Positions 51,129 to 54,897 of a stretch of 55,034 bases of DNA are shown here, one piece after another. Position numbers and translations under genes: made by a program. Position 1 is the first letter of the stretch; each line of letters opens with the position of its first letter. The stretch is from the NCBI GenBank assembly GCA_003168355.1, contig PMSQ01000211.1:1181-56214 (forward strand). The letters are read 5' to 3'. Source of the stretch: Acidobacteriaceae bacterium. Lineage in GTDB: Bacteria > Acidobacteriota > Terriglobia > Terriglobales > Acidobacteriaceae. The notes beneath the pieces were generated by a model, which saw nothing but the letters and a program-made list of their open reading frames with translations, was not told the origin of the DNA and searched no databases.

Positions 51129-52330
51129 CTATCTTAAGCTTCGATCTCCCTCCGAGATGATCTTATCCAGTGATTTCTTTGGCGCAGTCCGCGGGCCGAG
51201 AAAGAAGACGTCGTAGGTTAAGCGGCCATCTTTTGATTCGCCGTCGATCGGATCGGGATTCACGGCGGACCGATAGTGGAACAAGTTGCCGTACTAGTCG
51301 GTGATGGATTCATCGCGATACTTTAGGCTGATCGAGTACACGCCTAGCTCTGGGAGGGTGTGCAATTCGTTGGGCTGGGATATGCCGTCGTGGTTCTCGT
51401 CGATCCACAGCAGCAGCTTCGAATATACGGCGTCACGCGAGTCAATGATGCCGTCTCCGTTGCCTCCATTTTTTGGTTTGTCGAACTCCCCAATGCGAGA
51501 AATCCGTTAGGGTCTGCCGAGGAAGGCTGCAGGGTGTGATTGCCGAACAGCTCGCCGCCATTGTCGATTCTGCCATTGTGATTGCGATCCAACGCCAGGA
51601 AGGCATTGCCGGAGTCAGCCGCGGTCCAGGCGATCTTGATCGGTATCCCACTATTGAGAATGTCGAACTTGACGCCGTTCTGCAGCGAGGTCAAATGGAA
51701 ACCATGCCCGGTCGTATCGATGATAATCGGTGAAGCGAATTCACATTCGCACGTCGAAGGGTCGCACACGGAAATATTACCAGCTCCACTTTGAATCCCT
51801 TCACCACCGCATATTACGCTGCCGCCACAGCAACCATTGCCTGAACTTCCTCCCGGTTCCGACTGCGTGGTCACAGTCACTGCGGCACTCGGGCCCGACG
51901 TGCCGGCGGAGTCGCTGGCTTCCACTGTGAAGGTATAGGTGGTCGAAGGTGAAAGACCGGTCACGGCAAAGGATGTGCTGGTAGTGCTTCCAATCGAAGT
52001 CCCGTTTTGGAGTACGGTGTAGCTGCTGATGGTGCAATTTGTGGGAGGGGCCGTCGCGTTCCAATTCAGCGTCGTGGCTCCGCTCGTCGTCCCGGATGCC
52101 GCCAATCCCGTCGGAGGGCTGGGTTTTGTCCCGCAGTACTGTGGATTGGGTATCGTATTACATGCGAGAGGGTCCGGGTCGCTTACCGTCCAGATTACCT
52201 GCGGACTACCGGTCACGATCCCAAGGGCGCTGACGCTTACGGTGCAATCACAGAGGGACGTGGCGCATTCGGAGGCTCCGCCATATAGATATGCTGTGCA
52301 AGAAGCGCCTCCGTTGGTCCCGCGCCAGTC
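51129..52330 (-). pseudogene. 3' part of a broken secreted-protein gene (FN3 and Ca-binding-like domains)
   Basis: Continues the gene at 52237-53487 after a net -1 frameshift near 52330. The frame then reads ASECATSLCDCTVSVSALGI before an FN3 domain (PPTGLAASGTTSGATTLNWN to SPSTTYTFTVEASDSAG). A C-terminal domain follows with EF-hand-like loops ([42 protein letters not shown]). A second net -1 shift lies near 51490 (TTGGGGAG), and a TAG at 51296-51294 interrupts ITD*YGNLFHYRS, probably a former CAG. The last stop is 51129-51131. The intact sub-frame is 51344-52216. Confidence 0.7.
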
Positions 52331-53487
52331 CCGTTAGCCCAGTTTGCGCCTACTACGTGGCAATACCCCGTTACTGTTACTCCGGAATCGACGCCGACGG
52401 GTGTAGTAGTACTGTTGACATTACATTGGGTGTTACAGTTCGCGTTGTTGCCGTTGGTGTACGAGCAAGCGCTGCTGACTCCAATGCTGGCTGTGTGTGC
52501 GCCGCCAGCACGATGATCCGTGGTACCGATAGAACTGAGGGTGCTCGTGAAAGGGGCATTTGAACTGGAGCAGGTCGCCTGCGCGGCGTTAGAAGTTACT
52601 AAGTCTGCTTGTGCTGGGTTTGCCGGCGCGGTCGGAGGTGGAAACTGTCTGCTTTCGGGGTCAATCGGAACCCGCAAAGCCTTTTCGAGAACCTGGGCCG
52701 GAATGGCGCACTTACCGGAGGCGGCGTCGCAAACTACGTCTTGCAGTGATGAGCCCGAGGCCACGCCTGCCGTATTAATCCATTCGCGGACCCCTGGCCA
52801 CTCGCGCAAATGTGTTTCTAGGAGCGGCTGCGGATAGATGGGATTCTGCATGAAGTAGTTGAGTGATCCCATTCCGAGAACGTGATCGATGGGATAAATA
52901 GCCTCCGTACCGTCTGGATTCTTGCCGAACAAGAATATCGCCTGGTAGGTTCTCTGTCGTCCATCGAGCGCGACTGTGACGGTATAGGCGGCGTAACGCG
53001 AATACACAACGTCCGGCCTGAGCGTATCCAGTGGTAACTCTCGGATGACTTCTTTTGTCGGGATATTCCAATCCGCGTCGAAATCCATGTGGCGCTGCCA
53101 CCCAGCCATAGCGTAATTCATTGAAGTGGAAGACTCGCTCTTGCTCAATTTTATATGGTAGGGCATGCTTGAAGGGACGACGAAAATCAGGTCCTGCTGC
53201 GGCTTGGTCACCAGCGCGTCCCATCGCGTGTCCGCGATATCGGTCAAATTTCCAATCCTGAAGTTCTGGAACGCGAAGGCTAATTGGGCGTCCATTTGCT
53301 TCTGCATTTCCCCTAGGTCACTGAGCGCGTTATTTGGGCGAGAGATATTGTTTACGAGGACGCTCAACTTGGTCGCGTAAGCGAGTTTGGCATAGATCGT
53401 CCGAACCGTTTGTTCTTCATGCGTCGTCTGGGCTAGGGCCGCCGAAAAGGAAGCCAGCATCATGCAGATCACAGCTACGTGTCGCAT
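52237..53487 (-). pseudogene. 5' part of the broken secreted-protein gene, 416-codon intact frame
   Basis: ATG 53487 with AAGGAG 9 nt upstream (a TTG at 53496 is less likely). Signal peptide MRHVAVICMMLASFSAALAQ, then an N-terminal domain of unknown family (THEEQTVRTIYAKLAYATKL; YAAYTVTVALDGRQRTYQAI; GSLNYFMQNPIYPQPLLETH). It is paralogous to the gene at 53787-54607. It runs into a frameshift near 52330 and ends out of frame as APRPSVIAP. The protein could still be made in truncated form. Confidence 0.65.
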
Positions 53488-53773
53488 CGCGATCAACTCC
53501 TTAGTTAAGTTTTCCCAGGGATCACTGCTCGGTAGGTTCGGTCCGGGAGAATTCTGCCTCAGACCTCTCGAACCGTGTTCGCTTTCTTGCTTTCGTTACG
53601 AAAGCCGAACCTTCCTGCGGTCTCTCACAGCTATTTCGGTTGCGGCGAAGAACTTACATCAACCGGTGCGGAAAAGCTTGCGCCTGGCTGACGTTTCATT
53701 ATTGTTAAGAAAGCCGAACAAGTCTGCCGCTAACTGTCAGCCAGAACAATGCCTGACCCGCTTCCCTAGCCCA
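53488..53773 (-). promoter_or_regulatory. Conserved leader, copy A
   Basis: About 285 bp directly upstream of the ATG at 53487 align with the same region upstream of the ATG at 54607 at roughly four-fifths identity by eye. Long exact blocks occur, for example GAGAATTCTGCCTCAGACCT (plus strand) and CGTGTTCGCTTTCTTGCTTT. On the minus strand a CTTTCG-TAA-CGAAAG hairpin competes with a TTCGGCTTTC/GAAAGCGAA stem, resembling alternative leader structures. Contains GTTACGAAAGCCGAAC-like motifs at 53595 and 53704. Confidence 0.6.
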
Positions 53774-53786
53774 CAAGCGCGCCCTT

Positions 53787-54607
53787 TCATTGAAGGCTCG
53801 CTTTCAGGTCGGCGCTATAAATGCCGCACTGTAAGGCAGACAGATCACAGCAGGCTTCCCCGCCTCTGCAGGCCGGGTTATTACGCTGATTCACTTCAAG
53901 GAATTCGCGCAATACCGGATTCTTACCGTAGTGTGTTGTCTTCAAGAGAACCTGGGGATAGACCGGTTTGGTGAGAAGCTCATACAACGTCCCGCCCCCG
54001 AGGGCGACTACCATATCGCCGGGAACCACTTCCCCCTGCCCCTCCGGGCCAAAGAAGAAATCCGCACGATAAGTACGGCTCCGCCCCTCGAAGCCAACGG
54101 TGACGGTGTAGGAGCAGTAGCGCATGATCGCCGAAATCCCCGCCCCTCGTTCCATGTCCGGGAGCATTTCGGCTACGGTGCCGTCTGGGACCGGGCCTTT
54201 CGGGCCGTGAGACCAACGGGGCCTCGCTACGTTCATGCTGGTTGTGATATCCGCGCCGTTCGTCTCATCGGTGTAGGTTTCGGTCACGGACGCTACGTCA
54301 ACCACATCTCCGCCATCCCTGATATCAGAAAAGACTTGGGCGTACTTTTGATCGGCGACGCTGGCAATATCACCAACCGCAAAATCGCTCAAGCGGAAAG
54401 TCAGAGCCTCTTTGGCTACTTCCTGCGTCAGTTGAGCATAAGTTATCTTTGGGTGTGTCTCACTGCTTGTATTGCCGTTTCCAAGTCTACGGCGTAAGAC
54501 AGCTTGGCGTAGGCGGTTCGGACCACGGTTTCTTCGTGCGTCATCTGGGCGATTGCGGCTTCCTGAAGGGATGCCAGGAGTAAGCAAATTACAGCTAGGT
54601 ATCGCAT
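53787..54607 (-). pseudogene. Broken paralogue of the secreted-protein gene
   Basis: ATG 54607 (AAGGAGTTGATCGCG upstream) opens a frame with signal peptide MRYLAVICLLLASLQEAAIA and then QMTHEETVVRTAYAKLSYAV, matching the paralogue. A net -1 shift at about 54485 (GACTTGGAAACGG) throws it out of frame; the continuation runs to 53787 (NTSSETHPKITYAQLTQEVA, CSYTVTVGFEGRSRTYRADF, LYELLTKPVYPQVLLKTTHY). It ends after SADLKASLQ, without the FN3 and Ca-binding parts of its neighbour. The distal frame 53787-54587 is the longer piece. Confidence 0.65.
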
Positions 54608-54897
54608 CGCGATCAACTCCTTGCTTTGATTTTCCGGTGGATTTACAGCTCGGTAGGATCGGCCCGTGAGAATTCTGCCTCAGACCTCTCGCACCGTGTT
54701 CGCTTTCTTGCTTTCGTTACAAAAACCGAATCTTCGTCCGGTCTCGCGCAGCTATTTCGGTCGCGGCGAAGGACTTACATCGACCGGTACGAAAAACCTA
54801 CCCCCCCCTGGCTGAACCTTCATTATTGTTACGAAAGCCGAACAAGTGGCCAGCTACGTATCATCCGGGCCAAGATAAAACCCGCATCCCCAGCCCA
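54608..54897 (-). promoter_or_regulatory. Conserved leader, copy B
   Basis: The second copy of the leader, upstream of the ATG at 54607. It retains the blocks GAGAATTCTGCCTCAGACCT and TTCGCTTTCTTGCTTTCGTT and ends near AGCCCA. GTTACGAAAGCCGAAC occurs exactly at 54828 and degenerate at 54716. The window ends 137 bp beyond, with no gene visible there. Confidence 0.6.

Follow-up and report, generated by a model that had tools for sequence, protein, structure and literature searches.

Regulators of the XRE family (Cro/CI-like) have palindromic sites of about 20 bp before their own and other genes, and in the LexA/SOS regulon dyads of the GTTC..GAAC type serve as scattered operators. In this work, we are presenting an analysis of two tandem paralogues, A and B, and of the leaders in front of them, found in a genome of Candidatus Sulfotelmatobacter (Acidobacteriaceae) within a 55,034-nucleotide stretch of DNA (contig PMSQ01000211.1, positions 1,181 to 56,214), further called the window. 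In our reading each leader is a two-operator control region, most likely bound by a 268-aa XRE-like protein which probably regulates its own gene as well (we put the probability at roughly 0.7). The likeness to XRE-family systems would lie in a putative helix-turn-helix near the N terminus of this protein and in palindromic sites located before its own and other genes; the differences are its weak Pfam match, a site of which one half, in the genus, is no longer strictly symmetric, and the presence of several sites around the regulator gene, one of them 3' of it. A dyad and scattered operators also resemble the LexA/SOS regulon, and the C-terminal part of the regulator recalls, by eye only, the S24/LexA fold, but the genus possesses a LexA of its own, and no dyad is present at the LexA loci. 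With riboswitches and other cis-regulatory leaders of Rfam the locus shares a long conserved 5' region, but differs from them in showing neither a structure signal nor a family match. An autoregulated helix-turn-helix protein with scattered operators is a known kind of system, and the one proposed here would be a new, genus-wide instance of it; among titles and abstract openings, a coverage with subscription journals largely outside it, we found no description of the motif or of the regulator.

Both paralogues are read from the minus strand, so that upstream means to the right (Table 1), with the start codons at 53487-53485 (A) and 54607-54605 (B), and the right end of the window is the end of the contig (G000:C142, 56214 bases). 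The frame of A stops at 52237, after an interruption near 52310-52340, from where a coding-looking frame goes on in another phase into an ORF with an fn3 domain. Both reading frames are interrupted, as the preliminary description of this DNA had held; the frame changes may be real decay or an assembly error, the source being a metagenome assembly. Protein A has no match in Pfam or NCBIfam. For the larger piece of protein B, identity is 66% over 224 aa to its orthologue in another genome of the genus (G026) and about 30% to A, and the gene family as a whole was found in 4 of the 45 genomes of the genus.

Table 1. Paralogues, leaders and putative regulatory elements, in positions of the window
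Feature	Position	Strand	Remarks
Paralogue A	52237..53487	-	416 aa in its frame, secreted-looking, without assigned function
Leader A (promoter/operator and 5' region)	53488..53773	-	81% identical to leader B
Second element GGACCGAACCTACCGAGC, leader A	53527..53544	-	close to start codon
Proximal putative operator, leader A	53591..53611	-	profile score 31.2
Distal putative operator, leader A	53700..53720	-	profile score 23.9; 109 bp from proximal
Paralogue B	53787..54607	-	frame change near 54450-54470
Leader B	54608..54897	-	alignment to leader A; direct repeats
Second element, leader B	54648..54665	-	one base different from that of A
Proximal putative operator, leader B	54712..54732	-	profile score 23.4
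Distal putative operator, leader B	54824..54844	-	profile score 31.3; 112 bp from proximal

The two leaders agree at 229 of 283 aligned positions, and the coding parts, compared from about +90 to +820, at 316 of 709 (45%), which confirms the earlier estimates that the upstream regions are about four-fifths alike and that the coding parts are related but more diverged than the leaders. A DNA search of the same genome found no leader copies other than those of A and B. Since the two paralogues have long leaders which closely resemble each other, and their palindromic parts can be drawn as stems, they might be taken for a structured RNA or a riboswitch-like element, the option which the preliminary description had favoured. 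We rejected this candidate, as it gained support neither from Rfam nor from single-strand or alignment folding, and we regard it as highly improbable. An Rfam search of the window gave no match in the leaders, and when the leaders were folded against shuffled sequences they showed no excess stability (z of -1.41, a value reached by 19 of 200 shuffles, and z of 0.06). In the two-sequence consensus fold, just 1 of 70 pairs showed two-sided change, a count which, coming from two sequences only, cannot exclude covariation but does not provide the covarying pairs that had been looked for. In its middle, between -210 and -150, the leader is 35-45% identical to that of the G026 family member and does not align across species, compared with 59-69% for the operator-bearing stretches and the part before the start codon. 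The dyad, moreover, occurs in either orientation, beside many genes and at many different distances from them. The stem CTTTCG-TAA-CGAAAG noticed earlier is real, but its symmetry is that of a DNA motif occurring at many places, and judging by this distribution the leader element would act as DNA. Elsewhere in the window, the only Rfam match at the gathering threshold was a bacterial small SRP RNA (RF00169; 9317-9413, minus strand).

The motif in question is a 21-bp dyad with the consensus TGTTCGGnTTTCGTAACARAA, and its block reads as the inverted repeat TTGTTnnGAnnTCnnAACAA. Each leader carries two copies which point the same way, and about 105 bp separate the proximal copy from the start codon; the profile scores of the copies (Table 1) are to be compared with 10.1, the highest score that shuffled sequence (696 kb) gave. 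A multi-operator region had been among the options listed in the preliminary description, and it is the one which the evidence on these sites upholds. Among the other members of the gene family, the G026 leader contains two sites at a distance of 124 bp, one scoring 34.3 and the other, a weak one, 17.2, the G030 and G038 leaders have one site each, and the member located on contig C72 of the same genome as the window has none. A further pair of same-orientation putative operators, 98 bp apart, was observed in genome G018 before a gene of a secreted-looking protein (L168, 2022-2140).

In the genome of the window, the dyad pattern gave 15 matches with up to two mismatches, compared with 2 for the reversed pattern used as a control, and 4 of the 15 lie in the two leaders. 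When the survey was extended to 101 genomes and at most one mismatch was allowed, matches were found in 44 of the 45 genomes of the genus (own included) and in 1 of the 56 outside it; the summed sites amounted to 137 in the genus (reversed control, 6) and to 1 outside (control, 7). Of the 138 sites listed, 117 distinct ones were analysed, and 113 of these lie outside genes, as called by a simple purpose-made script; three of the four remaining sites represent one coding stretch at the end of a gene which, from its translation, we take by eye to be dnaE2. After these three were dropped, the alignment of 114 sites revealed a conserved block of about 21 bp with little conservation beyond it, where the inner positions are biased by the way the pattern was picked and the flanks are unbiased.

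This distribution bears on what kind of site the dyad is. A promoter of an alternative sigma factor was considered and rejected, since no conserved -10 is present behind the dyad among the aligned sites and both orientations occur; sigma-70-like promoters were located downstream of 5 of 111 sites and upstream of 2 of 111, which is a weak enrichment. The several copies per genome, their high information and their mostly intergenic position could also suit a dispersed repeat or a chromosome-organising site (REP-like or parS-like) which is no transcription operator at all. Such an origin seems to us most improbable, however, because nothing is conserved outside the 21 bp and because before one particular gene the geometry of the sites is fixed at nearly all loci, as described below.

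That gene encodes the 268-aa protein. Among the coherent groups of proteins next to the sites, this one is the most frequent (cluster 1, with 21 entries; cluster 0 is larger, with 35 entries, and by eye consists of mixed signalling proteins), and in the genome of the window its gene is found at G000:C145:26206-27009. As a single sequence it matches Pfam HTH_3 with E = 0.001, below the cut-off of that family. Among 18 diverse members, at E <= 0.1, HTH_31 was matched by 18 and HTH_19 and HTH_3 by 15 each, with a best value of 1.8e-06. The predicted structure is poor (mean pLDDT 37), and the search for solved relatives gave a match at chance level only (E = 1). This candidate regulator has a match in 41 of the 45 genus genomes, and 33 same-genus loci were examined, 30 of them in a first set and 32 with the gene start fixed. 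At all 30 loci of the first set at least two sites are present. Of the 32 loci for which the gene start was fixed, 31 have a pair of oppositely oriented sites upstream at a spacing of 114-117 bp, so that a palindromic site stands before the regulator's own gene, and at 30 of 32 there is a site 3' of the gene. This 3' site lies at or near the point where a convergent gene starts, whose product of about 140 aa has no Pfam match; the distance to the start codon is at most 1 nt in five of the six copies read and 11 nt in one. Of three same-genus paralogues of the regulator looked at, the one in G019 has sites and those in G021 and G036 have none. Some of the regulator-flanking sites were included in the profile; the dyad pattern itself was, however, first taken from the leaders of the window, and therefore the association of sites with the regulator was not created by the pattern.

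The same profile was applied to LexA, for which 15 loci were collected by a LexA_DNA_bind search (12 of them above the family cut-off; the genus contributes 10, including 8 above the cut-off). None of the 15 carries a site, the best score being 4.8, and as the LexA loci lack the dyad we rejected LexA as the regulator. In turn, the 268-aa protein has no LexA or peptidase S24 match in Pfam at E <= 0.1.

Outside the genus, 14 regulator loci at 40-71% identity were tested against 200 shuffles each, at most 2% of which were to reach the match count. A palindromic relative of the dyad, TTGTTCnGAnnTCnGAACAA, was detected upstream of the gene at six of them (G057, G047, G045, G086, G087 and G094), and in G047 there are two copies which match all 16 fixed positions, one being a perfect palindrome. 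By the same shuffle test no such relative is present upstream of the gene at the other 8. Among them, G056 carries two copies with 14 of the 16 positions on the 3' side of the gene, at +1158 and at +1416, near the places which the 3' sites take in the genus. Set beside this palindrome, the genus form has the appearance of a formerly symmetric operator in which GAACA, in the right half, gave way to GTAACA.

Heavy control of a regulator gene may mean that it is a target and not the source of control, and the sites could be operators of another regulator, to which the 268-aa XRE-like protein would be merely one of the regulated genes. Four of the 45 genus genomes have no regulator match, and three of these, the draft assemblies G017, G020 and G043 (84-93% complete), contain a single motif match each, which would agree with such a case. 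We nevertheless consider it unlikely in view of the fixed geometry of the two upstream sites at the same-genus loci, of the related palindromes upstream of the regulator gene at 6 of the 14 loci of other genera, in which the genus form hardly occurs, and of the LexA loci without a site.

We infer binding of the 268-aa protein from the constant association of its gene with the sites. According to the mechanism that we propose, dimers of this protein would occupy both sites of each leader and control a promoter nearby, and they would also control the regulator's own gene and a small regulon varying between species. Self-regulation is probable, since the gene is flanked by copies of the site. The action may be mainly repression, which is favoured by the site abutting the start codon of the neighbour of about 140 aa; a few sites located shortly before a -35-like box make activation possible at some targets. 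The spacing in the leaders is near to that upstream of the regulator gene (about eleven helical turns), so that two dimers may interact, and the paired arrangement could let them cooperate. The orientation of the pairs differs, being the same in the leaders and opposite at the regulator gene.

Besides the operators, the part of the leaders which recurs between species is a short second element near the start codon, with the consensus GGrCCGAACCTACCGAGC. It is single in each leader of the window, occurs once in the G026 family leader and in tandem units of 14 bp in that of G030, and is absent from the G038 family leader. We rejected GCCGAACCTACYGAGC as a genus-wide element, with 16 matches at up to one mismatch compared with 21 for the control; six of the 16, including all three exact ones, lie in leaders of the A/B gene family, and the other 10 loci have no operator. 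In the G030 sequence (L016, about 1974-2040; G030:C74:43973-44040, minus strand), GCCGAACCTAC is repeated, partly at 14-bp steps.

The question remains of why the two leaders are so similar. Leader B is 81% identical to leader A and 59% to the G026 leader (Fisher p 2e-8), while for the coding parts the order is reversed, 45% between A and B and 67% between B and G026 (p 4e-17), positions being taken as independent in both tests. Slow evolution of the leader alone predicts that leader B is nearer to G026 than to A, and as the reverse was found, copying is indicated. The A-B identity is 75% around the start codon and drops, over 68% and 55%, to 42% by +150 (this position, like those given above for the middle of the leader and for the compared coding parts, carries a 2-nt offset from the start codon), and this gradient places the switch at, or just past, the end of the part encoding the signal peptide. 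Most likely, therefore, to judge from these identities, the leader and the start of the signal peptide were copied between the paralogues, with gene conversion as one conceivable route, once the split from G026 had taken place. In the extreme, a recent tandem duplication or gene conversion could make the leaders alike without any functional element in them, and both the reversal relative to the coding parts and the identity gradient fit such a history. Copying is accepted here for the degree of similarity between A and B; as a complete explanation it is refuted by the putative operators, since these are also present in the G026, G030 and G038 leaders and beside unrelated genes throughout the genus, and we hold the absence of any functional element to be very improbable. 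The earlier claim of a leader conserved above its own coding sequence is accordingly true of the A/B pair, but this conservation is only partly due to selection, and between B and G026 it is the coding part which is better conserved.

The genes beside the sites make up no obvious pathway. Pfam matches among them include an ABC transporter ATPase, a LuxR-type protein and a secreted-looking phosphoesterase, and a 53-aa zinc-ribbon-like protein has a match to the DnaJ centre below the cut-off. At six loci (L018, L023, L100, L113, L151 and L157) a zinc-ribbon-like protein of 53 or 54 aa begins 61-65 bp past the putative operator, and by eye a GGDEF-type gene is convergent to it. In the genome of the window, a tandem pair of similar-looking proteins of 250 and 235 aa (L027, 1544-3000) begins beside a putative operator and reads away from it; both are secreted-looking by eye, the first has no Pfam match, and a TPR-like gene is located on the other side of the operator. 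Secreted products in general were not convincingly enriched, as a crude signal-peptide rule assigned 17 of 67 right-hand plus-strand genes and 20 of 110 left-hand genes to this class.

All 32 public records matching the regulator gene are metagenome assemblies. A wider picture, which we offer as a rather doubtful speculation, is that of a lineage-specific regulator of Acidobacteriota with a fast-turning regulon and looping paired operators about eleven helical turns apart, derived from a palindrome which lost its symmetry in one genus; leaders, with operators and signal-peptide start together, would have spread as control cassettes between diverging genes of secreted proteins. A leader conserved above its genes, when this comes partly from copying between paralogues, is a trap for inferring function. 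From sequence alone, the results obtained name a candidate regulator for a soil genus, together with its putative operator and a set of candidate targets.
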